Positions 2,987 through 59,175 are shown, numbered from the stretch's first letter. The stretch is DNA of 64,000 nt from Candidatus Vecturithrix granuli (GCA_000739535.1 DF820467.1:141895-205894), one strand, 5' to 3'. The notes: generated by a model from the letters alone, not told the origin. Numbers and translations: made by a program.

Positions 2987-3188
2987 ATAACTACAAGAAT
3001 GAAGAATAAACTAGAATTTTCGGACGTTTGCTGAATATCAGCGATTTTCGTCACACAAAAGTCAAAAAAAATTTAGTTGTTCTTGCATAAGTGAGTACAA
3101 ACAGATTCTTTCCACTTTTGATGTGCGAAACCTCAGGTATTGAGCAAACGTCCGAATATTCTTGCTTATATGTGATTCTTGTAGTTAC
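2987..3188. repeat. SD-linked palindrome, family B (copy 1)
   Basis: Long inverted repeat in the 2972-3410 gap. The arms contain AACTACAAGAAT with CGGACGTTTGCT on the left, and AGCAAACGTCCG with ATTCTTGTAGTT on the right. Read on the minus strand, the end of the repeat lies a few bases before the GAGGA ribosome binding site of the ATP-grasp gene. The rest of the gap (3189-3410) is AT-rich and may hold the promoter of the P-loop gene, but no clear element was seen. Confidence 0.75.
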
Positions 3189-3410
3189 TTAGTGGAGAAC
3201 AATGTAACAATCATAAATACTCTCATCAAATTCTCCAAAGCTTGAACATTGAGACCTGTTGTCAAGAAATAATCTTGAAAAATATGAAGTTAAATTACTT
3301 GACGGAACTCCATGTTAAATCCCAGTGTTACGCTGCCAGGTTTACAATACTTCAATAGGAAAATGTCACAATTTTTCGTCGTGTGACGAGAAAGGGACAG
3401 CGCAAAAGCT

Positions 3411-4448
3411 ATGAAAAAGATCAAACGTGGTTTTATTCTGCCCAGCGCCGCTTTTACCATAAAAGAGAAACAGGCTAAATATTATGACACGATCGTGAAA
3501 GCTCCAAAAGTCGGTGATGTGGTGTATGGCACGATCTCCCGGATCGGACAACATTCCTCGTTAGAAAATTCCTCTGGTAGGATCCATCAAATTCATAATG
3601 GTACCCGGGCGATTTTTGTGTTCGGTAATCGTTATGCGCCGGATTATTATGAAGGTGTTGTCCCCGAAATCATGGAGGAAGAAATAGATCTACTGGCGCG
3701 ATCAGGAATGATTGGAACGGTCAAAACCAAAAATGCGATGATCAAAGACCCGACGCGCGTTAAAATTCTGGGCTATGTCTGCCATGAAGATGGAACAGTG
3801 GTGAATACCAGGAATTTTGCGATGATCAATCCCAAAAACACCGTCAAAAAATTTCCCCGAGCGCCGATGATCCTTGTTTGTGGTACTTCAATGAATTCCG
3901 GAAAAAGTCTGGCCGCCGCCGCCTGCTGTTGGGCTTTTACCGCCATGGGGCATGAAGTGCGCGGGACCAAAATGACCGGCACCGCCAGTTTAAAAGATAT
4001 TCTGCACATGAACGACGCCGGGGCCAGTCTGTATGCTGATTTTACTTACCTCGGCTATCCCTCGACCTATCTTTTGTCCGAACAAGAACTGCTGAGCGTA
4101 TTCAACCGGCTCGATTTGAAATATGCCAACAATCCCAAAAATTTTTGGGTGGTCGAATTTGCCGATGGGATTATTCAGCGTGAAACCGCTATGCTGCTGC
4201 AATCACCGGAAGTAATTTCGCGGATTCACAAATTTATTTTTTGCGCCAGCGACGCTTTTGGCGCAATTGGCGGATTACACATTCTAAAAGAACGGTTTAA
4301 TTTGGTACCAGATGCCGTCTCTGGGATTTGTTCAAGTTCCCCCTTATCCATGCGCGAACTCGCTGAATTTACGAATATCCCAGTCTTTAACAGCGCCAAT
4401 CCAAGTCTGCACCAACTCGCTGACATTCTTTTTGCCCCGAAACAGTGA
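3411..4448 (+). CDS. P-loop NTPase-domain protein of unknown function
   Basis: A 345-residue protein. Residues 1-150 form a domain I do not recognise, with KVGDVVYG and a possible small beta-barrel. A clear phosphate-binding loop, GTSMNSGKS, sits at about 158-166 and is followed by an ATPase core containing VRGTKMTGTASLKDI and YLGYPSTYLLSEQEL. The order resembles DUF1611-like or MobB/dethiobiotin-synthetase-like NTPases, but this is a weak resemblance. No signal peptide or membrane segment is visible, so it is cytoplasmic. It is convergent with the rhamnose operon and separated from it by a palindrome. Function is unknown. Confidence 0.6.
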   Translation: MKKIKRGFILPSAAFTIKEKQAKYYDTIVKAPKVGDVVYGTISRIGQHSSLENSSGRIHQIHNGTRAIFVFGNRYAPDYYEGVVPEIMEEEIDLLARSGMIGTVKTKNAMIKDPTRVKILGYVCHEDGTVVNTRNFAMINPKNTVKKFPRAPMILVCGTSMNSGKSLAAAACCWAFTAMGHEVRGTKMTGTASLKDILHMNDAGASLYADFTYLGYPSTYLLSEQELLSVFNRLDLKYANNPKNFWVVEFADGIIQRETAMLLQSPEVISRIHKFIFCASDAFGAIGGLHILKERFNLVPDAVSGICSSSPLSMRELAEFTNIPVFNSANPSLHQLADILFAPKQ

Positions 4449-4458
4449 AGGCTGTTCA

Positions 4459-4514
4459 GGTTCGTAGTAACCGCTTCAGCGGCCTTTTGAACGCTAAAGC
4501 GGTTACTACGAACC
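4459..4514. repeat. Palindromic repeat, family C (copy 2)
   Basis: Near-perfect inverted repeat with 23-base arms and one mismatch. The left arm begins GGTTCGTAGTAACCGCTT and the right arm ends GGTTACTACGAACC. It lies between two convergent genes and could act as a bidirectional terminator, although it has no U-tract. Confidence 0.85.
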
Positions 4515-4519
4515 AGTAT

Positions 4520-5269
4520 TCAGATAACTTTCCGGCGGTAATGTTCGTCCGGACGATTTTCGATGCGATTCACATTAGCTTCAGAGAAGAAATTCGGCCC
4601 GCCAAGCAGATACGTTCCTATCGTGATTTTAGCAGTTTTGACGGCCATTTGCGTGATATTCAACACTTCTTTATCGTTCGCCCCTACCGCAATAAAGCCA
4701 TGGTTTTGCATATAGATCGTTTTAGGAGCTTTGCCAAAATGCGTAAGATACGTATGGAATTTTTGATACAGGACTTTGGCAAGCACAAATCCCGGATCAG
4801 TATAGGAAATATAGAGCGGATCGGAACCTAACACCACAATTTGATCGGGAAAGAGGCTGCCGCTCACGGCTTCTTCGGCTTTGTTTGAGCAGAGAATACT
4901 GTTGATGGCGGTCGGGTGCGTGTGGCCTACATAGTTAATCTCTTCTTGCGACAGAATAATCGCGTGTAAAAACGTCTCGACCGAAGGAACTCTCTGATCA
5001 GGGTTATCAACTGTTGCTGATAGCAGAATCTGTTTGACTTCCTGATCGCTGAGAGCTTCTCGTTCAAGCGCATGGAGAATAGGCGCGAATTGTACTTTTA
5101 AAAACCCCTGTTCCGTAATCGTGCTCAATTGGGTGCCTGAAGCTTTCACCAGAAAATAGTCCTGATTGACTTTGGCCGAGGTGTTCCCTTCCCCCAGAAT
5201 TGCACAATCATAAGCCTCAGATCCTAAAATATTTGACATTGTGACAAGTCGGTGTAATATCTCTTGCAT
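4520..5269 (-). CDS. Class II aldolase/adducin family protein, probable rhamnulose-1-phosphate aldolase
   Basis: About 249 residues from the chosen start. Class II aldolase features are the phosphate-loop motif GEGNTSAK, GTQLSTIT, the VETFLHA stretch, the zinc ligands HTHP and a C-terminal histidine in MQNHGFIAVG. The fold cleaves ketose-1-phosphates with Zn. As the last gene of the rhamnose operon after rhamnose isomerase, the likely reaction is L-rhamnulose-1-phosphate to dihydroxyacetone phosphate and L-lactaldehyde. The sequence is closer to the aldolase half of RhaD-type fusions than to E. coli RhaD. The frame stays open to a GTG at 5350, but that extension runs through a palindromic repeat, so I start at the ATG 5267-5269. 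Neither start has a good ribosome binding site. Confidence 0.75.
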   Translation of the reverse strand: MQEILHRLVTMSNILGSEAYDCAILGEGNTSAKVNQDYFLVKASGTQLSTITEQGFLKVQFAPILHALEREALSDQEVKQILLSATVDNPDQRVPSVETFLHAIILSQEEINYVGHTHPTAINSILCSNKAEEAVSGSLFPDQIVVLGSDPLYISYTDPGFVLAKVLYQKFHTYLTHFGKAPKTIYMQNHGFIAVGANDKEVLNITQMAVKTAKITIGTYLLGGPNFFSEANVNRIENRPDEHYRRKVI

Positions 5270-5276
5270 TGTTCGG

Positions 5277-5365
5277 AAAGTGTTTAAATGTTGGAGTGCG
5301 AAAGCTCTGCTTTCGCTGTCAAAGCAGAGCTTTGACACTCCTGAATTCACTCAAACACTCAAATC
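5277..5365. repeat. Palindromic repeat, family G (copy 1)
   Basis: Core inverted repeat at about 5292-5341 with arms GGAGTGCGAAAGCTCTGCTT and AAGCAGAGCTTTGACACTCC. It is flanked by weaker outer arms (GTGTTTAAATG and CACTCAAACAC). It fills the gap between the isomerase and aldolase genes and keeps the aldolase frame open upstream of its likely start. A related core lies at 57573-57620. Confidence 0.75.
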
Positions 5366-5366
5366 C

Positions 5367-6641
5367 TTATCTTTGAGAAAGTACATCTTTTTCATATTGT
5401 TTCACAACAGCCAGCCAGGCATATCCGGCCGGGACGTCATGCTTCAGACAGTAATAATCCCACACTGCGCCGAATGGCAGGGTTTTAAGCTCTTCAAGCA
5501 GGGCCAGACGGCTGGTGAAGTCGCCGTCCAGTTCATATTCTTGTAATGTAGCCGTCGGTTCTAAAAGGGCCAGCAGCAGGGCCTTAATCATATTGCGTGT
5601 GCCAATGACCCAGGCTGCCACACGATTAATACTGGCGTCAAAGAAGTCAAGCCCAATATGCACCCGTTTTAAATAATCGCCGCGCACCAGTTCCTGCGCC
5701 AACGCATTGAGTTCATCCGAAAGAATGATCACATGATCGCTGTCCCAGCGTATACCACGGCTCACATGCAGCAGCACTTCATCCAAAAAAGTCAAGACCG
5801 CCGAGAGTTTGTCAGAAACGACTTCTGTGGGATGGAAATGTCCGGTATCAAGGCATAATAAGGTTTTTCTGGTCAGGGCGTAGCCCATGTAAAATTCATG
5901 GGACCCGACCACGTAGCTTTCCGAACCAATACCGAAAAGTTTACATTCGACCGCGTCGCGGACATACTGGGCGTCAAGTTTTTCCGCCAGAATCGTATCG
6001 AGCGCGTCGCGTAAGCGTTCACGCGGAGCTTTGCGATCAGCCGGCAGATCTTTATAGCCATCGGGAATCCAGATATTATGCACGCACGGCGTCCCCAGCG
6101 CTTTGCCAAAAGCTTCGCTAATCTTGCGGCAGGCAAGAGCATGTTCGATCCAGAATTGTCGAATTCCCGCATCCGCGCTGCTGAGCGTGAAACCATCGTC
6201 AGCTTTGGGGTGCGAAAAAAAACTAGGGTTAAAATCAAAGCCTAACTTTCGTTCTTTACCCCAATTAATCCATTGACTGAAATGCTCTGGACGGATTTCA
6301 TTGCGGTCAACGCGCCTTCCTCCAAAATCGCCGTAAATAGCGTGTAAATTTAAGCGATGCGTTCCGGGAATCAAGCTGAAGGCTTTATCAAGATCCGCTC
6401 GTAATTCATCCGGCGTGCGAGCTTTGCCCGGATAATTGCCGGTAGCCTGAATGCCGCCGCCGCTTAATACTGCATCCGGGGTTTCAAAGCCGCCCACATC
6501 ATCGCCCTGCCAGCAGTGCAGAGAAATCGGGATCGAGGCTAAGGTGTGCATAGCCGTCTCAGTATCAACACCTAAGGCAGCATAACGCTCTTTGGCAAGG
6601 GTATAACTTGTTTCAACCTGTTGGGTCGTAATTGTGCTCAT
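5367..6641 (-). CDS. rhaA: L-rhamnose isomerase
   Basis: A 424-residue protein, close to the 419 residues of the E. coli enzyme, and similar along its full length. It has [12 protein letters not shown] near the N terminus, [11 protein letters not shown], the metal-site region [28 protein letters not shown], and [11 protein letters not shown] with [13 protein letters not shown]. It is a cytoplasmic TIM-barrel enzyme that uses Mn/Zn to interconvert L-rhamnose and L-rhamnulose, the first catabolic step after the mutarotase. The start ATG at 6639-6641 follows GAGAGGAGATT. It lies between the deacetylase and aldolase genes in the same orientation, with repeats in both gaps. Missing the kinase step, it depends on rhaB at 41.5 kb. 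Confidence 0.95.
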
Positions 6642-6661
6642 AATCTCCTCTCTTATGCATC

Positions 6662-6900
6662 AACCACAGATTTCTCAGATTTTAGAGGCTTCTCGGACAG
6701 GCATCTGCCCATGCCAAATCAGGTAATGGTTAAATGGTCAGTGATGTCTCGTTGACAACTGTTCGGTCAGGAGTGCGACGCGGTCGTCGCATGCGATGAC
6801 CTCATCGCACTCCTGCTTCCTGGCAAGCGTTCTAACACCCATCACTTACAACTTAACCATTACCCAAAAGCAATCTGTAAAATCCGAGCAATCCGTGGTT
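6662..6900. repeat. Triple-nested palindrome
   Basis: Three inverted repeats one inside another. The outer arms are 6662-6684 and 6878-6900 (AACCACAGATTTCTCAG against a mirrored copy, about 19 of 23 matches). The middle arms are 6722-6746 and 6841-6865 (GGTAATGGTTAA, about 20 of 25). The inner palindrome at 6768-6815 starts CAGGAGTGCGACG and ends CGCACTCCTG with GCATGC at its centre. The right outer arm reaches the stop codon of the deacetylase gene. The inner part is family D, also found inside the repeat at 11686-11950. Confidence 0.85.
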
Positions 6901-7780: not shown

Positions 7781-7833
7781 GATAAGATAGAAAAAGAGTG
7801 AAGGACAATGGCGGTACCTCCACTCTTTGCTCA

Positions 7834-7960: not shown

Positions 7961-7974
7961 CTTCTCTTTATTTA

Positions 7975-8991
7975 TTAAAAAATTTGGCTGAATTCTTCGA
8001 TGTTATCCTTATCAAATCTGTAAAGACCGCCCAGATAGACCAGCCCGTTTTCCACGCCTTCTTGCGCCTCGATCACGTAATGCCCAAGTTTTCCGGCCTC
8101 AAATTCTTCGCCGGGATTGCCGGTGATTTCTTTTGTGGCAAGCCGGTAAGCAATGTATGCGTTTAAATAGCCCAGATCAATCGGATTCCAGATGCCAAAT
8201 ACCGGGCTGGCCCCGTTCAACACGTATTCTTTCATTTCACTCGGCATGCCCAGACCCGTGACCATGACTTTGCCGATCAATCCTTGATCTGTCACCGCCC
8301 GCGCAGAAGCAGCAATACCAACAGTCGTCGGACTGATGATTCCTTTCAAATCAGGATAGGATTTGAACAGACCCAGGGCTTCATTGTAACTTTTTTCTCT
8401 GACGTCATCGCCATACACCACGCCAACCAGTTCAAGGTCTTTGTATTCTGGTTTTTCAAGCTCTTCCTTCATGTATTTGATCCAGGTGTTCTGGTTGCCC
8501 ATCGTGGCGGCTGCGCTCAGGATCGCAATCTGGCCTTTTCCACCGATGAGTTCCGAAATGATTTTGACCTGATCCGCGCCAATGGCCTGGGCCGAGGCTG
8601 GCTCCACTGAAATATTGCGGCTTTCCGGCACAATCGCCGATTCCCACCCAACGACCGGGATTCCGCGTTTCATCGCCTTTTGCGAGACATTCACCAGCGA
8701 CTGCGGATCGTTGGCCGCATACGTAATGCTATCCACGCCCTGAGCGATCAGCGATTCGATGATTTCAATCTGACCTTCAGGAGTCGGCTGTTCCGGGCCG
8801 CGGAAGATTGATTCTGCGCTCAATTCTTCACAGGCCGCATCCCATCCTTTGCGGATGGCGTCAAACCAGGGATTCCCAATATTTTTCACGACCATCGCCA
8901 GACGTTTTTGTTCTACGGCTTCTCCCACTCCGCCGCCAATCAGCGTAAACAGAAATACGGCAACAATTCCCAACACAACACATTTTTTCAT
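7975..8991 (-). CDS. rhaS: Rhamnose-type sugar ABC transporter, periplasmic binding protein
   Basis: 338 residues from the chosen start MKKCVVLG, with a signal peptide of about 25 residues (hydrophobic AVFLFTLIGGG). The mature part has the periplasmic-binding-protein type 1 fold of RhaS/LsrB-like proteins: NIGNPWFDAIRKGWD, IAQGVDSITYAANDP, SAAATMGNQNTW, SPTTVGIAASARA and MVTGLGMPSEM. It would capture L-rhamnose, by operon context, and deliver it to the two permeases. The frame is open to 9054, but AAGGAGAG lies 6 bases before 8991 and the signal peptide starts there. It is separated from the permease gene by 555 bases of repeats, which may allow differential expression. Confidence 0.88.
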   Translation of the reverse strand: MKKCVVLGIVAVFLFTLIGGGVGEAVEQKRLAMVVKNIGNPWFDAIRKGWDAACEELSAESIFRGPEQPTPEGQIEIIESLIAQGVDSITYAANDPQSLVNVSQKAMKRGIPVVGWESAIVPESRNISVEPASAQAIGADQVKIISELIGGKGQIAILSAAATMGNQNTWIKYMKEELEKPEYKDLELVGVVYGDDVREKSYNEALGLFKSYPDLKGIISPTTVGIAASARAVTDQGLIGKVMVTGLGMPSEMKEYVLNGASPVFGIWNPIDLGYLNAYIAYRLATKEITGNPGEEFEAGKLGHYVIEAQEGVENGLVYLGGLYRFDKDNIEEFSQIF

Positions 8992-9000
8992 AATCGTCTC

Positions 9001-9065
9001 TCCTTTTGAAACTCCAGGAATTAAGAACGAGCAAGAATGCTCAACTCCAGTCATTCCTCTTCATA
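9001..9065. repeat. SD-linked palindrome, family B (copy 2, divergent)
   Basis: Read on the minus strand it contains ATTCTTGCTC, then AATTCCTGGAGTTTCAAAAG and GAGAG, the ribosome binding site of the binding-protein gene. It is a diverged version of the copy at 15226-15298. The inverted partner arm is short. Confidence 0.55.
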
Positions 9066-15222: not shown

Positions 15223-15225
15223 TTC

Positions 15226-15298
15226 AACTACAGGAATTGATAGATAAGCAAGAATCGCTCCGAAGAGGATTCTTGCTTATCTATCAATTCCTGTAGTT
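15226..15298. repeat. SD-linked palindrome, family B (copy 3, perfect)
   Basis: Perfect inverted repeat with 31-base arms (15226-15256 and 15268-15298) and an 11-base loop. The left arm begins AACTACAGGAATTGATAG. The right arm ends CAATTCCTGTAGTT. It is followed at once by TCAAGGAGGG, the ribosome binding site of the URO-D gene, so the messenger would carry a very stable hairpin just before it. Confidence 0.92.
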
Positions 15299-15314
15299 TC
15301 AAGGAGGGAGAAGT

Positions 15315-16487
15315 ATGACAGGCAAAGAAACGATGACATCACGCGAGCGCGTCGTCAAAGCCCTCAGTTTTGAAGAGCCGGATCGAGTTCCTATTGATTT
15401 AGGAGGTTTTCAAACCGGCATTCACAAACGCGCTTACGAAGATTTACTCGCCTATTTCGGTTGGCAGGAAGAGCTTGAAATCCTTGATCCGGTTCAGCAA
15501 CTCGTTAAACCGAGCGAAGCGGTGCTGACCCGCTTTCATGTCGATACCCGCTACATTGTTGCCCATGCGCCGCAAGGCTTTCAAGGCCGCATTGAACAGC
15601 ACGAACGGGATGGCAAGCTATGGCGCGATTTGAAGGATGAATTTGGGGTGGTGTGGTCCATGCCGGAGGATCAACAATTGTACATGGATATCAGTCGCCA
15701 TCCCCTGGCCGACGCCACGCTTGACGACATCCGCGATTATCCCTTCCCCAACGGCAGCGATCCCACCCGCTTTACGGGCGTGCGCGAACAGGCCATAGAA
15801 ATGCGGAACAACACGCCTTACGCGCTGTCAACCGGCATTTTCGGCGTCGTGTATGAAGTGTGCTGGTATATGCGCGGTCTGGAACGCTGGTTTATTGATA
15901 TGATGGAAAATCCGACTTTTTGCGAAGCCCTGTTAGATCAAACGCTCAAATATTGGCTGGATTATACCGCCGGCTTTATGCAGGCTGTCGGCGATCTTGT
16001 GGATGTGGTCATGATCGGCGACGACCTGACCGGACAAAAAGGACCGCTGTTCTCGCCCAAATTTTATCGTCAGGTAGTCAAACCGCGCCAGAAGAAATTG
16101 GTGCAGCATTTGAAATCCCTGACCAATGCAAAAGTCTGGTATCATACCTGCGGCGCGTGCACCGCCTATATTCCCGATCTCCTCGATAACGGCATAGACA
16201 TCCTCAATCCTATTCAGATTAGCGCGAAAGACATGGAACCGGAACGCTTAAAACGTGAGTTCGGCAAACAACTTGTCTTCTGGGGCGGCGGGATTGATAC
16301 GCAGCACGTGCTTCCCTTTGCCAGGCCGGAAGAAATCCGCCAGCACGTCAAAAGAAACCTGGAGATCTTCAAACCCGGCGGCGGGTACGTGTTCAACAAT
16401 GTCCACAATATTCAATACGGCGTCCCGGCGCAAAACACAGTGGCCCTGTTTGACGCCGCGTATGAGTATGGGTTTTATAAAGAATGA
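15315..16487 (+). CDS. Uroporphyrinogen decarboxylase (URO-D) family protein
   Basis: A 390-residue TIM-barrel protein of the URO-D/MtaA superfamily. It starts TSRERVVKALSFEEPDRVPIDLG in the usual way, and has MIGDDLTGQKGPLFSP, the potential metal-site region WYHTCGACTAYIPDLLD, and VFWGGGIDTQHVLPF. Members decarboxylate uroporphyrinogen or move methyl groups to corrinoids or thiols. The N-terminal arginines of true HemE are not evident, and it follows rhaM, so a sugar-locus or methyl-transfer role is more likely than haem synthesis. The start has an excellent ribosome binding site (AAGGAGGGAGAAGT) linked to the family B hairpin. Confidence 0.8.
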   Translation: MTGKETMTSRERVVKALSFEEPDRVPIDLGGFQTGIHKRAYEDLLAYFGWQEELEILDPVQQLVKPSEAVLTRFHVDTRYIVAHAPQGFQGRIEQHERDGKLWRDLKDEFGVVWSMPEDQQLYMDISRHPLADATLDDIRDYPFPNGSDPTRFTGVREQAIEMRNNTPYALSTGIFGVVYEVCWYMRGLERWFIDMMENPTFCEALLDQTLKYWLDYTAGFMQAVGDLVDVVMIGDDLTGQKGPLFSPKFYRQVVKPRQKKLVQHLKSLTNAKVWYHTCGACTAYIPDLLDNGIDILNPIQISAKDMEPERLKREFGKQLVFWGGGIDTQHVLPFARPEEIRQHVKRNLEIFKPGGGYVFNNVHNIQYGVPAQNTVALFDAAYEYGFYKE

Positions 16488-23768: not shown

Positions 23769-23803
23769 AAAACCGGGTTTTTTCCTAAAAACCCGGTTTT
23801 TTT
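23769..23803 (+). terminator. Rho-independent terminator of the second sugar-ABC operon
   Basis: Inverted repeat AAAACCGGGTTTTTT / AAAAACCCGGTTTTTTT, 19 bases after the binding-protein stop. It is nearly identical to the groEL terminator. Confidence 0.92.
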
Positions 23804-23925: not shown

Positions 23926-24663
23926 TTATTGCATGTTTCTGATACGAACCTCTATTTCTGACTCATCTTTGAGCAGTTCCACTAATTTCGCCGGATCGGT
24001 ATCGCCGTAATGATAGGGGTACAGGATCGCGGGTTTGAAGGCTTTGGCGGCGTCAGCGACCATCTCCGGGGTCATGGTATAGGGCAGGTTCATCGGTAAA
24101 AAGGCGCAATCAATGTTTGCCAACGCCTTCATTTCGGGCGTGTTTTCGGTGTCAGCCGCAACATACACGCGGGTATCGCCGAAGGTCAGGATATAGCCAT
24201 TTCCGACGCCTTTGGGATGAAAAGGCTGGCCGTTATCGCGTTTATGCTCGAGGTTATAGGCCGGAACCGCTTCAATGCTGATCTCGTCAACAGTCTGAAC
24301 ATCCCCATTGCGCATAATCACCCCATCCTTGATCGTTTGCGCGCTGGCTTCTGTCAAAATGACCGTCGTGTCGGCTTTCCGCAATTGGGCTATTGCCTTT
24401 GGATCAAGATGATCCCCATGTTCATGCGTAATCAGAATCAGGTCGGCCTGAGGCAATTTGGCATAATCTGCCAGGTTGCCGACCGGATCAACATGAATGA
24501 CCTTTTCGCCAAAAGTAAACATCAGCGTACCATGTCCGATAAATGTGATTTCCAGGTCCCCGGCAGATGTAGGCAGCACATCTTTTTCAAACTGTTCCTG
24601 CGCATTGGCAACATTTGCCAGACCGAACACGACAAACAACATCAAGACTCCTAGCTTCATCAT
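23926..24663 (-). CDS. Secreted metallo-beta-lactamase-fold hydrolase
   Basis: 245 residues from MMKLGVLM. The N terminus is a signal peptide (about 1-22, ending ANVANAQ). The MBL-fold metal motif is THEHGDHLD, preceded by FIGHGTLMFTF and HVDPVG. Later ligands are in VYVAADTENTP and LYPYHYGD. The layout fits the UlaG-like/YtnP-like small MBL hydrolases, whose substrates vary. It is exported, probably to the periplasm. The frame extends 47 codons upstream through a family B repeat, but GAGGAGGGAAAATT lies just before 24663 and the signal peptide starts there. Confidence 0.85.
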   Translation of the reverse strand: MMKLGVLMLFVVFGLANVANAQEQFEKDVLPTSAGDLEITFIGHGTLMFTFGEKVIHVDPVGNLADYAKLPQADLILITHEHGDHLDPKAIAQLRKADTTVILTEASAQTIKDGVIMRNGDVQTVDEISIEAVPAYNLEHKRDNGQPFHPKGVGNGYILTFGDTRVYVAADTENTPEMKALANIDCAFLPMNLPYTMTPEMVADAAKAFKPAILYPYHYGDTDPAKLVELLKDESEIEVRIRNMQ

Positions 24664-24677
24664 AATTTTCCCTCCTC

Positions 24678-24775
24678 TGAAACTACAAGGATTCCTCATA
24701 AACAAGGATTTTTTATCCCTGGTTATGTGAAATCCCTGTAGTTTCATGATGCCGGGTGAGCGCAAGCTCATATTA
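24678..24775. repeat. SD-linked palindrome, family B (copy 4)
   Basis: Inverted arms AAACTACAAGGATT and AATCCCTGTAGTTT, with CATGATGCCGGGTGAGCG beyond. On the minus strand it ends TTGTAGTTTCAGAGGAGG, the ribosome binding site of the MBL-fold gene. The extended part resembles the copy at 59060-59175. Confidence 0.85.
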
Positions 24776-24849
24776 ACTCCTTTAAATATGCGTGCGAGAA
24801 GCATTCATTTTACCTGCTGCAATTTACGTAGGATTGTTAAAACGATTTG

Positions 24850-31892: not shown

Positions 31893-32695
31893 TTATCCTG
31901 TAAAACTACAACTTCTTGCAGCAATTTTTCGTGTAAGCGGCCATTTGACGCCAGAAGAAAGGCATTCTGCCGATCCCAATGCCGGCCTTGCCAATCGGAA
32001 ACTTTGCCTCCGGCCTCTTCCACCAGGACAATGCCGGCCGCGTAATCCCAGAGTTCGTCGCCGGAGCAGAGAAAGCCCTCGGCGCAGCCGCGCGCCAGAT
32101 AGGTTAATTCCAGCGCGGTCGCGCCTAAAGCCCTGATCGAATACTGACCGATCAGCCGATCCGACAGCCAGGCGAAACGCTGCTTATCAATCGGATGAGA
32201 GCCATGGTTCAGGAACAGTATGGTTGCTTCAGGATCGGTTGTCTCAGAGACGTGTAAGGGCTGTTCGTTCAGATACGCGCCTTTGCCCTGTTCCGCGTAA
32301 AAACATTCATCCGTGAGCGGGTTATAAATCACCCCCAGGATCGCCTCGCCCTCTTCAACCAGTCCGATTGAGACGACAAACAAGGGAATCTGCCGCGCAA
32401 AATTCGAGGTGCCATCCAGAGGGTCAATAATCCAGGAACGTCCGGCCGGCGGTTCATGCGGCGCGCTTTCTTCGCTGATAATGGCGTAGGGTGAATTCGC
32501 CTGTAACAGGTCAATAATCGCACGTTCAGCGGCTTTATCAGTTTCCGTCACCAGTCCTTTGCCATCGGGTTTCACCGCAAAAGTTTTGGTTTTTTCGTAC
32601 TGTTCGGCAATCACCGCGCCAGCCCGCCGCGCCGCTTCGATTGCCAGTTCAAGGTCAGAAGAAAGATAAACAGGCGCAGACGTTATACGTTGCAT
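31889..32695 (-). CDS. Inositol-monophosphatase family protein
   Basis: A 268-residue protein of normal family length. It has the metal site EES at 75-77, DPLDGT at 91-96 (WIIDPLDGTSNF), and the C-terminal ELWDYAAGIVLVEEAGG. The family dephosphorylates inositol phosphate, or acts as CysQ/SuhB, using Mg. The true substrate is not evident. The start is preceded by AGAGGAGAATATT, joined to a family B repeat. The 3' end overlaps the Rhs cassette by 4 bases. Confidence 0.88.
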   Translation of the reverse strand: MQRITSAPVYLSSDLELAIEAARRAGAVIAEQYEKTKTFAVKPDGKGLVTETDKAAERAIIDLLQANSPYAIISEESAPHEPPAGRSWIIDPLDGTSNFARQIPLFVVSIGLVEEGEAILGVIYNPLTDECFYAEQGKGAYLNEQPLHVSETTDPEATILFLNHGSHPIDKQRFAWLSDRLIGQYSIRALGATALELTYLARGCAEGFLCSGDELWDYAAGIVLVEEAGGKVSDWQGRHWDRQNAFLLASNGRLHEKLLQEVVVLQDK

Positions 32696-32699: not shown

Positions 32700-32860
32700 T
32701 TCTCCTCTGAAACTACAAGGATTTTCTGTAGGAAGGATTCTTAACGGCGAATTGGTCGGCGTGAGACCGAACCATGCCTCTGAAAATCCCTCCCACACGA
32801 AATCCTTGGAGTTTCATGGCGATGGACGAGCACAAGCTCATGATAGTTCCTATAAAACTG
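32700..32860. repeat. SD-linked palindrome, family B (copy 5)
   Basis: Arms GAAACTACAAGGATTTTC and ATCCTTGGAGTTTC enclose a second hairpin with GGCGAATTGGTCGG and its mirror. On the minus strand it ends CTTGTAGTTTCAGAGGAG, the ribosome binding site of the inositol-monophosphatase-like gene. The inner section (CAGAGGCATGGTTCGG, CCGTTAAGAATCC) is shared with the copy at 39042-39210. Confidence 0.85.
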
Positions 32861-33117
32861 CAGGAATGAGGAATAAGCAAAAATTTTCCCTGCATTACTT
32901 GAAGCACTAAGTACTAAAAAAGCACGCATCACGTCAACAAATTTCATTCTCCGGACATGTTTTTATTTGACAAACTGATGAAAAGATTTGAGTATCGACA
33001 TTTAACCCTTTGAGAATACAAGCAGAACGACGGGACTTCTCATGCAGGTTCGGAATGTGGCACGCCTGCCCGTGTGTGGCCTTCTATACTTACATGAGAA
33101 TGCTATGCCGTTTATAA

Positions 33118-35116: not shown

Positions 35117-35160
35117 TGATTCTTGCTTATATATCAATTCTTGTAGTTCCAAAGGAGGAA
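35117..35160 (+). repeat. SD-linked repeat, family B (copy 6, single arm)
   Basis: Only the 3' arm is present: GATTCTTGCTTATATATCAA, then TTCTTGTAGTTCCAAAGGAG, ending in the ribosome binding site of the oppA gene. It matches the right arm of the perfect copy at 15226-15298, and the left arm is missing. It lies inside the opp operon. Confidence 0.8.
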
Positions 35161-35167: not shown

Positions 35168-36799
35168 ATGAAAAAATATATGCTTGTGTTGCTCGTTCTG
35201 TGTGTATTTCCGGCAGTTGTACATGCGCTGCCGCCGGATGCTCTGCCGGAATCGGAGCAGGTGCTGTTGTATCCGCTCAAATTGGAAGCCGGAACCTATA
35301 TTGATTACATGAAAACGATCTATAACTGTCTGCAAGGCGCGGCGGAACTGGCGCAGGAAGCGTTGATGGCGTTCGATAAGGATCTGGAGGTCGTCCCGAT
35401 GGGGGCTGAAAAATGGGAGGTTTCCGAGGATGGGCTGATCTGGACCTTTCATCTGCGCAAAGAGCTGACCTGGTCTGACGGCAAACCGATTACCGCCCCT
35501 GATTATGTGTTTTCGCTGCAACGCGCGGTGCAGCAGGGGTATGATTTCGGTTGGTATTGGAGTTTTGCTGCGGGGCTAAAAAACTGGAGCACGGTCGAAA
35601 AAGGGGAATTACCGGTAGAAGAGCTGGGCATCAAGGCGTTGGACGATTATACGCTTGAGATTACGACCGATACACCCAAACCGTATCTGTTAGGCGTGTT
35701 GACCTGGTTGTATCCAACGCCGCGCCACGCGGTAGAGGCTCATGGCGATGAATATGCCACGACCGCCGAAACGATGGTGTGCAGCGGACCGTTTAAGCTG
35801 GTGGAATGGGTGAAAGGCGATCATTTGACGTTTGTGAAAAATCCGGATTACAAAGGTTTATGGCAGCCTTCGCTGGAAAAAGTCATCTTAAAATACGGCA
35901 CTTTTGAACCGGAAACCGGATTCCCGGCCTATATGAATGATGAAACCTATCGTTCGGATTTGAACCCCGGTCAGTTGGCCTTTGCCCGGGAAAGCATGGC
36001 GGATCAACTCCATTCCTGGCCGATGTTCCGCATTTTCTACATCTCCTTTGATACGACAACGCCGCCGTTTAATGACATTCGCGTCCGCAAAGCCTTTGAA
36101 TATGCCTTCAATCGCGAAGAATTATGCGATACGATTCTCAAAGATATGGCTTCCCCGGAATATTCGCCGCTCATGAGCGGGTTCCCGGGCTACGATCCGG
36201 AAGCGGCCAAAAGTTTGACCAAGTACGATCCGGAAGAAGCCAAACGCTTAATGGCTGAGGCCGGTTATCCTGACGGCAAAGGTTTCCCGCAACTGGAAAT
36301 GTGGCTGCGGGGCGAAGATCAAATGCACCCCTGGCAGAAACCGGCCGCCAGCTATATGCAGGCGCAGTTTAAGGAAAAATTAGGCGTGGACATCATTCCG
36401 CGCGTTGTGGAGGTCAAAACCTTCGCCGATACGCTGAACAAACATGCGCATCCACTGTTCTTGCTCGCTTATCAGTTCGATTATGTTGACCCCAGTAATT
36501 TTATGGATCTGTTCCTGTCCGGCGGGCGTCATGCCTGGTCTAATGCGGAATACGACGCCCTCGTCAAAGAAGCAGACCCGATGACTGACCAGGAACCGCG
36601 GATCCAAAAATACCGTCAGGCCGAGAAAATTTTGATCGAAGAAGCTCCGTCGGTCTTTGCATTTCAGCAGCAATATTCGGCAGTCTGGAAACCTTTCCTG
36701 AAAGGCGAAGGGCTTGAACCGAATTCCAAAGGCATCGCCAGTTGGGGCGATATGTGGGGCAAATACGTGATGACCCATATTTACATTGCAACGCATTAA
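35168..36799 (+). CDS. Oligopeptide ABC transporter substrate-binding protein (OppA/DppA type)
   Basis: A 543-residue protein with a signal peptide of about 20 residues (MKKYMLVLLVLCVFPAVVHA) and no lipobox. The mature protein has the SBP_bac_5 layout: MAFDKDLEVVPMGAEKWEVS, FHLRKELTWSDGKP, YVFSLQRAV, TMVCSGPFKLVEWVKGD, KNPDYKG and VRKAFEYAFNREELC. It captures peptides, or possibly another ligand, in the periplasm. Oddly, the middle (VILKYGTFEPETGFPAYMN) replaces the usual EYFQE.Y part. The AAAGGAGGAATCTTGTT ribosome binding site belongs to a family B repeat. Confidence 0.9.
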   Translation: MKKYMLVLLVLCVFPAVVHALPPDALPESEQVLLYPLKLEAGTYIDYMKTIYNCLQGAAELAQEALMAFDKDLEVVPMGAEKWEVSEDGLIWTFHLRKELTWSDGKPITAPDYVFSLQRAVQQGYDFGWYWSFAAGLKNWSTVEKGELPVEELGIKALDDYTLEITTDTPKPYLLGVLTWLYPTPRHAVEAHGDEYATTAETMVCSGPFKLVEWVKGDHLTFVKNPDYKGLWQPSLEKVILKYGTFEPETGFPAYMNDETYRSDLNPGQLAFARESMADQLHSWPMFRIFYISFDTTTPPFNDIRVRKAFEYAFNREELCDTILKDMASPEYSPLMSGFPGYDPEAAKSLTKYDPEEAKRLMAEAGYPDGKGFPQLEMWLRGEDQMHPWQKPAASYMQAQFKEKLGVDIIPRVVEVKTFADTLNKHAHPLFLLAYQFDYVDPSNFMDLFLSGGRHAWSNAEYDALVKEADPMTDQEPRIQKYRQAEKILIEEAPSVFAFQQQYSAVWKPFLKGEGLEPNSKGIASWGDMWGKYVMTHIYIATH

Positions 36800-39041: not shown

Positions 39042-39210
39042 TAACTACAGGAATCGCATATAGGAAAGAATGTGAGGTCAGGTACGGCACAAATCTATTC
39101 TTTCCTATATGTGATTCCTGTAGGAAGGATTCTCAGAGGCATGGTTCGGCGCTACGCCGACCACTTCGCCGTCAGGAATCCTCCCTACAGAAAATCCCTG
39201 TAGTTTGAAG
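39042..39210. repeat. SD-linked palindrome, family B (copy 7)
   Basis: Two linked hairpins: AACTACAGGAATCGCATATA against TATATGTGATTCCTGTAG, then a GGAAGGATTCTCAGAGGC / GGAATCCTCC unit. It ends CCCTGTAGTTTGAAGGAGA, the ribosome binding site of the nitrilase-family gene. It shares its inner section with copy 5 at 32700-32860. Confidence 0.88.
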
Positions 39211-39220
39211 GAGAATATGT

Positions 39221-39994
39221 ATGAAAGTTACGGTGTGTGAATTGAGGAATGATTTGGATGGGTTGAAAGAAGATTGGCAGGCGTTGGTCAGTCATGTGCA
39301 GGCAAACGCCAGTGAATTCGTACTGCTGCCGGAAATGCCGTTTTTTCCCTGGTTAGCCCGTACCCGTGAAGTCGATCCGGCGCGCTGGGAAGAGTCTATG
39401 AACGTGCATGAGGCCTGGATCGCGCGTCTGACAGAACTGGCTCCGGCCAGCATTGCAGCAACCCGGCCGGTGCTCAAACACGGAAAACGCTTGAATGAAG
39501 CCTTTGTCTGGCAGAAAGCAACGGGGTACGCCGGAGTACACACGAAATATTATCTTCCCGATGAAGCGGGATTTTGGGAAGCGTCGTGGTACGAACGCGG
39601 CGCAGGGGATTTTGCAATAACGACGATCAACAACGTTCAGGCCGGATTTCTGATCTGTACCGAACTGTGGTTCAACAAGCATGCCCGCGAGTATGTAACT
39701 CAGGGAATTCATCTTTTGCTCTGCCCAAGAGTAACGCCCCAAAGTTCGATTGACAAGTGGATTGCCGGCGGCCGCACCGCAGCCGTGGTGTCAGGGGCTT
39801 TTTGCCTCTCCTCGAATCTGGTCGGAACTGTCACAAACGGAGTCGATTTCGGCGGCGCGGGCTGGATTATTGAGCCTGAAGAAGGAACAGTTTTAGGGGT
39901 CACTTCTCAGCAGCAGCCGTTTTTGACATTAGACATTGATCTGCGCGTCGCTGATGCAGCCAAACACACTTATCCGCGTTACGTGCGTGATTAA
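39221..39994 (+). CDS. Nitrilase/carbon-nitrogen hydrolase family protein
   Basis: A 257-residue single-domain member of the family. The catalytic triad is visible as Glu38 (LLPEMPFFPW), Lys109 (HTKYYLP) and Cys146 (FLICTELW). Such enzymes hydrolyse amides, nitriles or carbamoyl groups via a cysteine thioester. No signal peptide is seen, so it is cytoplasmic. The order after the opp genes suggests the amide may be a peptide-derived compound, but this is weak. It has its own family B leader and GAAGGAGA site. Motif spacing is normal. Confidence 0.85.
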   Translation: MKVTVCELRNDLDGLKEDWQALVSHVQANASEFVLLPEMPFFPWLARTREVDPARWEESMNVHEAWIARLTELAPASIAATRPVLKHGKRLNEAFVWQKATGYAGVHTKYYLPDEAGFWEASWYERGAGDFAITTINNVQAGFLICTELWFNKHAREYVTQGIHLLLCPRVTPQSSIDKWIAGGRTAAVVSGAFCLSSNLVGTVTNGVDFGGAGWIIEPEEGTVLGVTSQQQPFLTLDIDLRVADAAKHTYPRYVRD

Positions 39995-40103: not shown

Positions 40104-40242
40104 TATGTAACGTGAGTTCGGGATAAGAAAAACGCCGTAAAAGTCCCGAAGGGACTGGATCTGGTAGCCCAGGGCTGACACCCTGGGTTACCAGATTCCG
40201 CCCCGTTGGGGCTTACAAGCTTATCCCGAACTCACGTTATGT
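40104..40242. repeat. Double-nested palindrome
   Basis: Outer arms TATGTAACGTGAGTTCGG and CCGAACTCACGTTATGTA enclose an inner palindrome at about 40158-40196 with GATCTGGTAGCCCAGGG and CCCTGGGTTACCAGAT. Small GTCCCGAAGGGAC and CCCCGTTGGGG hairpins flank it. It has the same nested design as the other large repeats but a different sequence. Confidence 0.8.
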
Positions 40243-49348: not shown

Positions 49349-49380
49349 AAAAAACCGGGTTTTTCAAAAACCCGGTTTTT
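49349..49380 (+). terminator. Terminator between rpsA and the convergent calcium ATPase
   Basis: AAAAACCGGGTTTTT / AAAAACCCGGTTTTT hairpin, 23 bases after the rpsA stop and 14 bases from the stop of the convergent gene. Its symmetry and T/A tracts suit both directions. Confidence 0.9.
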
Positions 49381-49393
49381 CTCTGCGGATATA

Positions 49394-52330: not shown

Positions 52331-52360
52331 AATGTTTTTGTCTCCTCCTATGTCGTGAAA

Positions 52361-52391
52361 GAAACCGGGGTTTTGCTAAAAACCCGGTTTC
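52361..52391 (-). terminator. Terminator of the neu-capsule-pgpA operon
   Basis: On the minus strand GAAACCGGGTTTTTAGCAAA / CCCCGGTTTC hairpin, 8 bases after the pgpA stop and 30 bases before the ATPase start codon. It lacks a long T run, so termination may be partial. It shares the CCGGGTTTTT stem with four other terminators. Confidence 0.8.
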
Positions 52392-52398
52392 TCTGCCA

Positions 52399-55258: not shown

Positions 55259-56425
55259 TTATAAGGACAGCGTTTTCTGCAAGTTTATTTTGGCGGTCGC
55301 TAATATATCAACAATACGCTGACTGGCATGACCATCGCCATACATAAGATCACGTTCATAACGGCCATGCGCTAATTGCTTACGCACTGCTGCCACGATC
55401 TCATCACAGTCATACTCCACATCAATCACATTTGGGCTTCGTTCTCGTCCGGCCTGACGATTGCCGACGCAAACCACTGGCGTGCCTAAAAAGGATCCCT
55501 CCCTCAGCGCGCTGCTGGAATTTCCGATAAAACAGGCGGATCCAGAAAGAATGCGGATATAGTCTTCAGGGGCGAAATTGGTAAAGAGATACAAAAATTC
55601 TGGACGATAGAATTGACAAAAGGCTTCAATCTGCTGCGCCATCGCGCGCCCTCCAGCGTCAACATTCGGTTTTAACAGAATCGTGGGCATCTGTAACTCA
55701 AGCAAAGCGTGCAACGTACACTTAATTTGGCTTGCCGCCGCTTGCTGTTCGGTCGTGACTGGGTGTTGGGCCACTAATAAATAGGGTTGAGTGAGATTAA
55801 AAACACGTTGGCATTGTCCATGACCTGTTCCGTTGAGTGGGAGCGTGGTTAAGGGAATGTGTAACGCCTTATGCGCCAGATCAAGCGACGGACAACCGAC
55901 ATGATATACGGTTTCCGGAGGTTCCCCCATTTTTATCAATCGTTCCGCGCTCAATTGGGTGGCCGGAAAATGGAGATGTGCCAGGCGGGTAATGGCATGA
56001 CGCACGCTTTCATCGATCGAACCCGACACCTCGCCGCCCTGTAAGTGCGCGACCGGGATGTTCATATACGCTGCCGCAACTGCTGCTGACAGGGCGTCGT
56101 AACGATCGGCGATCACAAAGACCATATCAGGCTGGAGGTTTTCAAACACTGTCGCCAGTTCAATAATCCCCAATCCCGCGCTGATTGCCATTGTGGCCGG
56201 GGTCTGCCCTTCTACCACAAAATTGACGCGCGCATGGATCGGAAAACCATCCTCTTGCACAATATTCACCGCCTCGCCAAAACACGGCAATAACATTGAC
56301 GACCCGACCACCAACTGTAATTCTAAACCAGGGTGTTCTTGAATGGCATGTAAGACTGATTTTACTCGTCCATAATTCGCCCGGTTAATCACGATCACAC
56401 AGATTTTTCGCGTTTCCATGCTCAC
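55259..56425 (-). CDS. neuC: UDP-N-acetylglucosamine 2-epimerase (hydrolysing, NeuC-type)
   Basis: A 388-residue GT-B-fold enzyme. INRANYGRVKSVL, the catalytic-region DRYDALSAAVAA, HLQGGEVSGSIDESVRHAITRL and FIGNSSSALREGSFLGTPVVCVGNRQAGRE are NeuC/hydrolysing epimerase motifs. It converts UDP-GlcNAc to ManNAc (or the related 6-deoxy-diacetamido sugar) for the NeuB step. In the same operon as neuB (13-base gap) and neuA. The TAA stop abuts the neuA ATG. Confidence 0.88.
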   Translation of the reverse strand: MSMETRKICVIVINRANYGRVKSVLHAIQEHPGLELQLVVGSSMLLPCFGEAVNIVQEDGFPIHARVNFVVEGQTPATMAISAGLGIIELATVFENLQPDMVFVIADRYDALSAAVAAAYMNIPVAHLQGGEVSGSIDESVRHAITRLAHLHFPATQLSAERLIKMGEPPETVYHVGCPSLDLAHKALHIPLTTLPLNGTGHGQCQRVFNLTQPYLLVAQHPVTTEQQAAASQIKCTLHALLELQMPTILLKPNVDAGGRAMAQQIEAFCQFYRPEFLYLFTNFAPEDYIRILSGSACFIGNSSSALREGSFLGTPVVCVGNRQAGRERSPNVIDVEYDCDEIVAAVRKQLAHGRYERDLMYGDGHASQRIVDILATAKINLQKTLSL

Positions 56426-56438
56426 GTCCGTTTGCCTT

Positions 56439-57239
56439 TCATCTATTATCGCCCCACTTTCCGATGTAAATTCCCCGCAATTCGATTTCTTTCGCGCTCA
56501 AACCGGGGCACGGCTCGCCCATCATCTGTTCAACTTGCCGCGCATACTGAGCTAATTCGCGGATTTCATCCGGTTCAGCCGAGATCGCTTGATCTTTCCC
56601 GGGTAATTCCCGACTCAGTGTAAAATGTTTTTCCAGATACGTCGCTCCTCTGGCAATGGACAGTTTTCCGGCCGCTGTTCCCAGAGTATGATCGCTGAAT
56701 CCGACAGAAGGGGTAAATTGCCGCAACCAATCCATACGCGCCAGATTCACCTGTTCCAGCGGAGTCGGATAGAGCGAGATGCAGTATAAAAAGGTATATG
56801 ACGTCTGTCCCAATAATTCCGCGGTCTGCTGAATTTCTTGATCATACGACATCCCAGTTGAAATAATCAGATGCTCAAAGCGTTCACGCAATTTCCGAAT
56901 CATGGCGTGACTCCCCAGGTCAGGACTGGCAATTTTGATCGTGTTCAGACCTAGTCCGGCTAAAAACTCCACGCGCCCGATGTCAAAACAGGTGGTTAAA
57001 AATTTGACATGATTAGCTTCACACGCCCGGATCAAACGATGATGCGCTTCATCGGACAACTCGGCTTTAGCGTGACGCTCAAAATTCGGGTCCCCCGGTT
57101 TCAGATTTTTGGCTTGCCAGGATTGAAATTTAACCCAATCGGCTCCGGCCTGCGCCGCCGCTTCGATCATTTTGACAGCGAGATTAACGTCGTCGCCGTG
57201 ATTGGCTCCAACTTCTGCAATAATTTGTGTTCGCGCCAT
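56439..57239 (-). CDS. neuB: N-acetylneuraminate synthase-like protein without the SAF domain
   Basis: A 266-residue NeuB-type aldolase. AEVGANHGDDVNLAVKMIE, WVKFQSWQAKNL, ISTGMSYDQEI, LYCISLYPTP, GFSDHTLG and LEKHFTLSRELPGKDQ are the expected catalytic segments. It condenses PEP with a hexosamine. Typical NeuB, LegI and PseI proteins are about 340-350 residues and end in an antifreeze-like SAF domain that caps the partner's active site. This one stops right after the barrel (IYIGKWGDNR). No remnant of SAF follows in the next gene, neuC. The start ATG has a poor ribosome binding site, just after a family A repeat. Confidence 0.85.
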   Translation of the reverse strand: MARTQIIAEVGANHGDDVNLAVKMIEAAAQAGADWVKFQSWQAKNLKPGDPNFERHAKAELSDEAHHRLIRACEANHVKFLTTCFDIGRVEFLAGLGLNTIKIASPDLGSHAMIRKLRERFEHLIISTGMSYDQEIQQTAELLGQTSYTFLYCISLYPTPLEQVNLARMDWLRQFTPSVGFSDHTLGTAAGKLSIARGATYLEKHFTLSRELPGKDQAISAEPDEIRELAQYARQVEQMMGEPCPGLSAKEIELRGIYIGKWGDNR

Positions 57240-57270
57240 TTTTCAACCCCACCCCGGCGTCTCTCCAAAG

Positions 57271-57383
57271 GCAGGGCTGTGAAGTTCTCGCAAAATAGAG
57301 CGTCTCGACTTCGCTCGACGTGCGGTGTTCCGGTCATCGAGCGGAGTCGAGATGACAAACATCCACAGAACTTAACAGTCCTA
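57271..57383. repeat. Nested palindrome, family A (copy 7)
   Basis: Starts GCAGGGCTGTGAAGTTCT and ends AGAACTTAACAGTCCTACT. The inner arms are CGTCTCGACTTCGCTCGA and TCGAGCGGAGTCGAGATGAC. Further C/G-rich arms (CCCCACCCCGG, CCGGGGATGGGG) flank it. It lies between neuB and the glycosyltransferase-like gene, filling most of the 57240-57480 gap. Confidence 0.85.
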
Positions 57384-57480
57384 CTCCTTTTGGGAGTAAC
57401 CGGGGATGGGGTTCTTCAAGAAATTTTAGTATAAGCTTCTCACGCGTTGTGTTGACACTCTTCAAAGTAATCAAGTCTTG

Positions 57481-58992
57481 TCAGGATGTTCCGGTTCTTG
57501 TCAATATATTTTTCATTCTCCCGTGTAAATGAAATGTGTATTGACATGCAAGGTTATGGACATTTTTCGGAATGCCAAAGCTCTGCTTTGGTCGCGCAAG
57601 CAGAGCTTGCGCACTCCAGAGAGCGTGTCCATAACCTTCTGTGTCATTACATTTATGCCTTATGATCTGTTGCAAAACCCTGGCGATTCGTTCGGCAGCA
57701 TGTCCGTCGCAGCGAACATATTCCTGTAAAAACGTCTGTCGTTCTGCATCCAATTTGCTGCGGACGACAGAATCTTCAAGCACACGACGCAGAGAGGGGA
57801 GCAAATCGGACTGTCGGGTCACATGAAAGACTCCTCCGGCCTTTGCCCACATATCATACCCTGGAGTCTGATAAAAATCGAAGGTCAGGGTGGGGGTGCC
57901 TAAAATATGCGCATCAAACACAATTGTTGATCCCTGGCAGATCAGCAGATCACTGATGGCGATCAGTTTGCCGGTTTCATAACGGCGAATCACCGTAAAA
58001 GCTTTAGAGTGACCTTGTAAATATGGCAGCGTTTCAGCTTCATCGCGCGGATGAACTTTGATCACCAAATGAAAGGTCTCATCCAGGCAAAGTAATCGGG
58101 CGATGACCTCATGTAAATAGGCATTCATCTGATCCGCCGTAATATGTCCGGCCCGCGTGCCGGCTGTAATATGCGCAACCGGCGGCGCGCCGAGCAGCAG
58201 CAGCCGTTTTTCCGCCGGCGCGCCGATCTCCTGACAGATGCGTTCGCGTTCTCTGGTTTTCCACTGTAATCCGTCTTGAATCAACAGATCATGGCGCGGA
58301 TGCCCTGTCGCCAGAATTTTGGCGGGATTCACCCCGGCTTTCAGCAAAATGCGCCGGTAATGTTCGCCCGTGACCGCTACATAGTCCGCCTGTCCGCCGC
58401 CTAAAATCCAGGGATTTTCGGGATAGCCGGCAAACAGCCGCATCCCTAAAATCGCTGAAGGCGGCTGCCAGAAGACCGCTTGGCCATCAACATACTTGAC
58501 GGCCTGGGGTACAAACCATTCAACACTGCGTCTCAAAATCTGCTCCGAGAACGATACATTGTAATGATTACTCCTTTTCTGCCGCCAGATCAGCATGTTT
58601 TCTACATCATTTGTCGCCGCCCACATGACGACCAGAGAAGGGATCTGGCGGACTTTAGCCTGCTTAACCAGAAAGGCTTCGATATAACGGCGATCATCAA
58701 TCAGTACGAAGGCTGATGGGTGAATTTCGTCGCAGAATTGCTGGGCAAAATGACGCAGACGCCTATTTTCCCGGAAAAATTGGAGCACGCCGCCAGTGAG
58801 ATGGCGTCCCCATACAAAATGCGGAAGATAGAGGGCGGACAGGCCAAATTCTGCACACAGCGATCCGGATGCCTGATCATTGTACGGCAAAAGAAAAAGG
58901 GACTCCTCTCCTGAAGCTCGGAGTTGGTCGGCAATCGGCGCAAATGTGCGGATCGCCTCATGATAATGAGGCATAAACACAATTATTCCCAT
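57481..58992 (-). CDS. GT-B-type glycosyltransferase-like protein, C terminus altered by a repeat
   Basis: A 503-residue protein. The N-terminal half starts IIVFMPHYHEAIRTFAPIADQL. Residues 230-400 contain TGHPRHDLL, KVHPRDEAETLPY and SDLLICQGSTIVFDAHILGTPTLTF, a GT-B type binding pattern as in CDP-glycerol and capsule transferases. The role is probably surface-glycan assembly. From about residue 440 the frame runs through a palindromic repeat, giving a tail (ALWSAQALLARPKQS) with no likely homology, so the ancestral end was probably near IIRHK. There is no ribosome binding site at 58992. Confidence 0.6.
   Translation of the reverse strand: MGIIVFMPHYHEAIRTFAPIADQLRASGEESLFLLPYNDQASGSLCAEFGLSALYLPHFVWGRHLTGGVLQFFRENRRLRHFAQQFCDEIHPSAFVLIDDRRYIEAFLVKQAKVRQIPSLVVMWAATNDVENMLIWRQKRSNHYNVSFSEQILRRSVEWFVPQAVKYVDGQAVFWQPPSAILGMRLFAGYPENPWILGGGQADYVAVTGEHYRRILLKAGVNPAKILATGHPRHDLLIQDGLQWKTRERERICQEIGAPAEKRLLLLGAPPVAHITAGTRAGHITADQMNAYLHEVIARLLCLDETFHLVIKVHPRDEAETLPYLQGHSKAFTVIRRYETGKLIAISDLLICQGSTIVFDAHILGTPTLTFDFYQTPGYDMWAKAGGVFHVTRQSDLLPSLRRVLEDSVVRSKLDAERQTFLQEYVRCDGHAAERIARVLQQIIRHKCNDTEGYGHALWSAQALLARPKQSFGIPKNVHNLACQYTFHLHGRMKNILTRTGTS
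57525..57656. repeat. Nested palindrome, family G (copy 2), inside a gene end
   Basis: Outer arms AAATGTGTATTGACATGC and TGTCATTACATTT share AAGGTTATGGACA / TGTCCATAACCTT. The inner palindrome at about 57573-57620 is GGAATGCCAAAGCTCTGC against GCAGAGCTTGCGCACTCC. It overlaps the last 40-60 codons of the glycosyltransferase-like gene. The inner part resembles the repeat at 5292-5341. Confidence 0.8.
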
Positions 58993-59059
58993 ATTCTATC
59001 TATTCAGCAACAAATCCGCTACTGTTGAACATTCATCCAGGATAGTATTTCTGGCGTAG

Positions 59060-59175
59060 ATTTTTCTCCTCTGAGACTACAAGGATTCCTCATAAGCAAG
59101 GGGTTTTTATCCCTGGTTATGTGAGATCCATGTAGTTTCATCATGCCGGGTAAGCATACGCTCATGATAACTCCT
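59060..59175. repeat. SD-linked palindrome, family B (copy 8)
   Basis: Arms GAGACTACAAGGATTCC and ATCCATGTAGTTTC, with CATGCCGGGTAAGCATACG beyond, much like copy 4. On the minus strand it ends CTTGTAGTCTCAGAGGAG, but no start codon follows at normal distance. The nearest gene start is 58992, about 70 bases on. The gap 58993-59276 also holds a CTGCGGACAAGCC / GGCTGTCCGCAG hairpin. Confidence 0.8.

Follow-up and report, generated by a model that had tools for sequence, protein, structure and literature searches.

Gene-less palindromic units abutting the Shine-Dalgarno sequences of unrelated genes in Candidatus Vecturithrix granuli

Mobile elements spare their hosts by using harmless sites such as tRNA genes, repetitive extragenic palindromic (REP) sequences and intergenic DNA. 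The closest described systems to the one considered here are the palindrome-associated transposable elements (PATEs) of Haloquadratum walsbyi, which have IS605-type ends (PMC3119063), the REP and REPIN repeats mobilised by REP-associated tyrosine transposases (RAYTs; PMC3116915, PMC3733652) and miniature inverted-repeat transposable elements (MITEs) such as Correia/NEMIS, BOX and RUP (PMC3733652, PMC3049150). Here we describe, from a 64,000-nucleotide stretch of Candidatus Vecturithrix granuli (GCA_000739535.1 DF820467.1:141895-205894; hereafter the window) and from the genome around it, a conserved hairpin-bearing unit whose right end abuts Shine-Dalgarno (SD) sequences. We consider it probable, at roughly 0.7, that the family is one of mobile elements, non-autonomous and without genes of their own, which target the SD pentamer AGGAG of a gene for insertion. 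If true, this would be an unusual solution: no functional motif recurs more often at gene starts than the SD, and a gene whose SD stays intact on either side of the element can continue to be expressed, which would make the SD a safe harbour analogous to tRNA genes for a genomic parasite that apparently sits at the starts of unrelated genes without breaking them. No mobile element described as SD-targeting was found in the literature searched, a weak negative given its partial coverage.

Anatomy of the unit and its described relatives

Read towards the gene, a full unit comprises AGGAG, a module that we call L, TGAAA, a long palindrome, TTTCA-N, a second AGGAG, a spacer and the start codon. 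The element measures about 105-150 bp and contains no gene. Module L, which reads TTRTC-ATGAGC-NNNN-GCTCA-CCCGGCACAA and follows its own AGGAG, is 30 nt long and nearly constant; its TGAGC/GCTCA hairpin has a 5-bp stem with a tetraloop and is paired in 93% of stem cells, and covariation in this stem does not exceed that of shuffles because the sequence is conserved. To the left of L, most copies carry AGGAG or a one-mismatch variant, always in one orientation. By inspection, the unit ends lack terminal inverted repeats, and palindromes lie subterminally at both ends. The same layout, with a different hairpin, is seen in another left module, L2 (AGGAGTTCTTCATGTGTTTTGGCAAACACACCACAACGCATGAA). 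Units are also stacked head to tail, the longest array (L123, C20:705.6-706.0k) holding four.

An earlier note on this DNA, which listed eight palindrome copies in the window, took the palindrome itself for the repeat. It does recur genome-wide, but it is only the interchangeable core of the larger unit, which has module L upstream. Downstream of 95 L modules we counted 39 cores of type P1, the palindrome family of that note, with subtypes of 69 bp, 109 bp and others, and 41 of type P2, a REPIN-like inverted pair of GTAG/GTAC-tagged REPs, alongside single cases of other palindromes. P1, P2 and other unrelated palindromes have been exchanged or nested inside TGAAA...TTTCA.

The conserved AUG of L, well spaced at 5 nt after the left SD, could start a short peptide coupled to the downstream gene, and in 12/59 units the corresponding open reading frame (ORF) stops at a TAG 5 nt before the palindrome end. 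A stop within three codons in 16/59 units, however, together with ORF lengths and frames that vary between subtypes and an L2 variant that can lack the AUG, makes such a translated leader very improbable. Leader-peptide coding as the conserved feature of L was rejected because of the differing frames and stops between copies.

These features place the unit nearest to PATEs, which likewise lack terminal inverted repeats, have near-terminal palindromes and reach high copy number without a transposase gene; the two adjacent subterminal hairpins, the fixed target pentamer and the fixed orientation of the unit point the same way. The nesting of the short palindromic element SMR-A (~110 bp) in a PATE near-terminal palindrome (PMC3119063) resembles that of P1 and P2 inside TGAAA..TTTCA. 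In contrast to PATEs, the target here is AGGAG, that is, the SD, and an IS605-type transposon with the unit's ends was not found in the genome studied; nor did the literature searched yield a report of PATEs at ribosome-binding sites. The resemblance would therefore be one of mode of working, and we do not file the unit as a PATE because no transposase with unit ends was found.

REPINs offer a second parallel, in that core P2 consists of two palindromes, inverted relative to each other and tagged with GTAG/GTAC, and REPs of similar form accompany a RAYT gene at C13:26448. REP dimers nested in TGAAA--TTTCA palindromes have been described in A. variabilis (PMC3733652). Unlike REPINs, the unit has module L in addition, and a constant right end that non-REP cores share; the GTAG-type 5' foot occurs in core P2 only, P1 having the reverse order, CTAC..GTAG, with its GTAG at the opposite foot of the hairpin. 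Like MITEs, the units are short, non-autonomous, intergenic and transcribed as hairpins near genes, but full units have no bounding inverted repeats and lie at an SD rather than at TA or a random site; moreover, no autonomous relative of the unit was found and a target duplication is not proven. Rickettsia palindromic elements, as far as they are portrayed in a citing paper (PMC3733652), are also host-tolerated palindromic repeats at genes, although they lie in frame inside coding sequences whereas the units lie outside them, at the SD.

Placement at Shine-Dalgarno sequences and start codons

Base-by-base reading covered 2.46 Mb of the 8.38-Mb genome, about 29%; the sequence is a draft assembly (completeness 93.8%, contamination 10.75%), and gene calls, made with a simple home-made codon-usage caller, are approximate. 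The core motif gave 150 matches against 6 for a reversed control (1.66 Mb; three consensus variants, up to two mismatches), and TCCYTGTAGTTTCA gave 278 against 3 with at most one mismatch in the whole 8.38-Mb genome. L modules number at least 150, a minimum that reflects the search used. In contrast, L had no copy in three other genomes of the phylum (model search) or in 39 comparison genomes, and an exact-match search of a genome contig collection from which this genome's own records were possibly excluded also returned none.

Placement relative to SDs and start codons, which the earlier note had proposed comparing with that of other palindromes, was distinctly non-random. Scoring an SD-like sequence within 2 nt of a repeat end in the 2.46 Mb, we found that 98/171 P1 and P2 ends abutted an SD (39/93 P1 ends, with two ends per palindrome, and 59/78 P2 unit ends), compared with 5/621 ends of four other repeats pooled (Fisher p ~6e-71). 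The P1-like MITE end GTAGTTACT was SD-adjacent in 0/32 cases. Called start codons occurred only 9-19 nt downstream of the ends (22 for P1, 39 for P2), and 6.8% of random intergenic points had a start codon within 35 nt. No single palindrome had an SD on both sides, and the same held for start codons. Most ends lay wholly outside called genes (84/93 for P1, 64/78 for P2).

The last unit of an array preceded a start codon in 33/42 cases, compared with 456/1316 other intergenic AGGAG sequences (Fisher p ~2e-8), indicating that the pentamer by itself does not account for how often the units lie at functional SDs. These counts derive from 43 SD-bearing array-terminal units, one of which is N-masked and was excluded; 31 starts were called automatically and two clear ATGs were added by eye. 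Ordinary palindromic repeats, inserted at random upstream of genes and later recruited as SDs, would be in keeping with the frequent adjacency of MITE and REP families to genes and with the many other intergenic palindromes of this genome. Those palindromes, however, are almost never SD-adjacent, and the left boundary of the unit is also AGGAG, at the normal position once the unit is removed, unlike what random insertion would leave, so that we regard later recruitment as very improbable.

The genes downstream are unrelated, as the earlier note had observed. About 35 of them share no function, including reductases, an aldolase, an HSP70-like protein, transporters, PdxA and a restriction-modification methylase, among others, and within the window Pfam bore out the identities read from the sequence: ATP-grasp (D-ala ligase type), periplasmic-binding, SBP_bac_5, URO-D, metallo-beta-lactamase fold, inositol monophosphatase and nitrilase. 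This bears on the suggestion that the repeat is a regulatory hairpin through which a set of genes is controlled together, by temperature sensing or by the binding of protein or RNA. A hairpin this long and stable, only one nucleotide away from the SD, would suit such a role, and the unit at 24672-24781 folds at -55 kcal/mol (z = -5.3). Yet the genes have no common pathway, the palindrome sequence is exchangeable, about one-fifth of array-terminal units have no recognisable gene start after them, L lacks covariation beyond shuffles, and the SD of the unit is unpaired to a slightly greater degree than native SDs (median 0.48 versus 0.34; n=31, 80), in keeping with an element that still allows expression and not with a repressor hairpin. 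No Rfam family matched the units in the window, the sole match there (Acido-Lenti-1) lying elsewhere. The regulatory suggestion is not supported, and we consider it very improbable.

Insertion at the target and the search for a mobilising enzyme

Evidence that the unit arrived at existing SDs comes from its flanks. At sites outside arrays, the sequence left of the AGGAG of L is unique. A likely empty site was provided by two paralogous leaders, 89% and 83% identical on the two sides, of which that at C18:601.15k lacks the unit (GTG-AGGCG-GGATGTAAACAATGG) and that at C19:474.7k contains it, exactly at the SD (GTA-AGAAG-[unit]-AAGAG-GAATATAGACAATGG). Similarly, in an operon-like gene pair at C20:152.8k, taking out the unit brings the two genes from 123 to 18 nt apart, with a single SD between them. 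The SD, which the earlier note read as part of the palindrome, is better seen as the target of insertion, present on either side of the element afterwards.

The right copy is almost always AGGAG and the left copy is degenerate, and the second AGGAG is compatible either with a 5-bp target duplication or with an element-borne right cleavage site. In the latter case, the element would carry AGGAG as its own right end and replace the SD of the gene, the left AGGAG being the old SD, as the asymmetry between the copies would suggest and as would the variable N before the right AGGAG, which departs from the native distribution of the -1 base. Degeneracy of the left copy, however, is also expected under relaxed selection, and AAGAG, the right copy at the likely empty site, can be matched in alignment with the region around the native SD in the paralog that lacks the unit; we therefore treat replacement by an element-borne end as a serious possibility that we do not favour. 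SD variants on the left and right were uncorrelated, and the base before the left AGGAG matched that before the right in 9/32 cases, against 9.3 expected. A 5-bp duplication is accordingly not proven, and a 6-bp duplication, with N uncorrelated between the sides, is unsupported.

Under insertion targeted at the SD, a unit would enter in one orientation relative to its target, which would be why units always point at the gene, and would leave AGGAG on both sides, so that the gene would keep a working SD one nucleotide downstream of the hairpin. The left copy would then be free to drift, and repeated insertion would produce tandem arrays. The earlier proposal that the repeat moves as a 5'-leader appears essentially right in light of the placement test, although the mobile unit is larger and includes the upstream module L. 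Movement would be by transposition. Most speculatively, hairpin-bearing single-stranded DNA might be moved by a Y1/HUH transposase acting in trans, as is thought for IS605-derived PATEs. A tentative extension, which we hold to be possible but doubtful, is a single-stranded-DNA (PATE/IS605-like) system whose recognition pentamer is the SD itself, such that every insertion is aimed at a gene start, the ribosome-binding site is regenerated and arrays of leaders can be built. If true, the family would naturally supply unrelated genes with modular 5' leaders that can be stacked, and would raise a specific new question, that of which enzyme recognises AGGAG.

Several results weigh against targeted insertion. 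Two whole-genome DNA searches yielded no further empty sites, and because the single likely one lies between diverged paralogs (~85%), we can only infer that the direction was insertion rather than loss. The left and right SD variants and the bases preceding them are uncorrelated, as described above, and about one-fifth of array-terminal units lack a recognisable start. The 12 Y1 transposase genes of the genome include none flanked by L or by a unit end, no TnpB was found in the genome, and no autonomous copy was detected, instances of L without a nearby core being truncated units or N-masked ends only.

REPs on either side of the RAYT gene at C13:26448 (GTACCGCGAACCTCCCGGTTCGCGG) have a form related, but not identical, to P2. 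At loci L143, L144 and L152, Y1/RAYT-type transposase genes each have their own flanking REP-like palindrome family.

Units, partial copies and other repeats in the window

The eight copies listed in the earlier note belong, with one exception, to this large family, far above chance, and its reading of AGGAG as the ribosome-binding site in seven of them holds for six (9001, 15226, 24678, 32700, 35117 and the complex copy at 39042, whose SD-bearing end is really at 39194-39208). Each ends in TTTCA or a one-base variant with AGGAG immediately after it, and a start codon follows 6-10 nt later. The copy at 59060 has AGGAG with no start codon after it; the copy at 2987 ends in GTAGTTATTAAACTG with no adjacent SD and should be dropped because it belongs to another, MITE-like element (2972-3203), of which it forms one end. 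Copies 24678, 32700 and 59060 belong to full units (24672-24781, 32702-32851 and 59066-59175, all on the minus strand), and 9001, 15226, 35117 and 39042 are partial or rearranged.

In the first full unit (A), the left AGGAG, which we infer to be the original SD, lies at 24777-24781, followed by module L with its small hairpin (TTAATATGAGC-TTGC-GCTCACCCGGCATCA; 24747-24776), the 69-bp palindrome P1a (TGAAACTAC...GTAGTTTCA; 24678-24746) and the right AGGAG (24672-24676), which serves as SD for a metallo-beta-lactamase-fold gene whose start is at 24663. The AUG of L in this unit is in frame with that gene, and an ORF beginning at 24804 runs stop-free through the palindrome (24663-24804), such that automatic annotation would give the gene a false N-terminal extension.

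The second (B) has AGGAA as its left SD copy (32847-32851), then L (32817-32846), the 109-bp palindrome P1b (32708-32816) and the right AGGAG (32702-32706), the SD of an inositol monophosphatase-family gene starting at 32695; the right arm of an older, truncated unit is stacked upstream (32853-32887, minus strand). The third (C) consists of the left AGGAG (59171-59175), L (59141-59170), a 69-bp P1a palindrome (59072-59140) and a right AGGAG (59066-59070) without a start codon at normal spacing. Stacked upstream of it, and read by eye, is a unit without L (59177-59273, minus strand; AGGAG-ATCGTACC...GTACGGGTATTTTCA) that has a different palindrome yet again ends in TTTCA-N-AGGAG.

Among the incomplete copies, a P1 palindrome with 31-bp perfect arms and an abutting AGGAG but no L lies at 15226-15306 (plus strand), its AGGAG (15302-15306) being the SD of the URO-D gene at 15315. 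For two genes the SD comes from a P1 right arm with AGGAG: a periplasmic-binding protein gene that starts at 8991 (arm and SD at 9000-9021, minus strand) and the SBP_bac_5 gene at 35168 (35118-35157, plus strand). The rearranged unit at 39045-39213 (plus strand) fuses a P1 palindrome to the right half of P1b and ends in TTTGA-AGGAG, the SD of the nitrilase gene at 39221.

The MITE-like element at 2972-3203, to which no strand is assigned, lies outside this system. It is about 230 bp long with 76-nt inverted arms, and its ends, (A)AACTACAAGAAT and ATTCTTGTAGTTACT, are related to P1 but not linked to, or abutted by, an SD; further GTAGTTACT ends of this type occur elsewhere in the genome. At 40108-40239, a perfect 20-bp inverted repeat (TAACGTGAGTTCGGGATAAG) encloses the Rfam Acido-Lenti-1 RNA (RF01687, 40168-40213, plus strand) and looks like a small mobile element. 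Between 27065 and 31661, a paralogous gene segment occurs four times in tandem with 87-92% identity over 300 nt and further shared stretches. Finally, a terminator-like palindrome, AAAAACCCGGTTTTT, is found at 126-160, 23769-23803, 49349-49383 and 52360-52394 and has 290 copies in the 2.46 Mb, often between genes.

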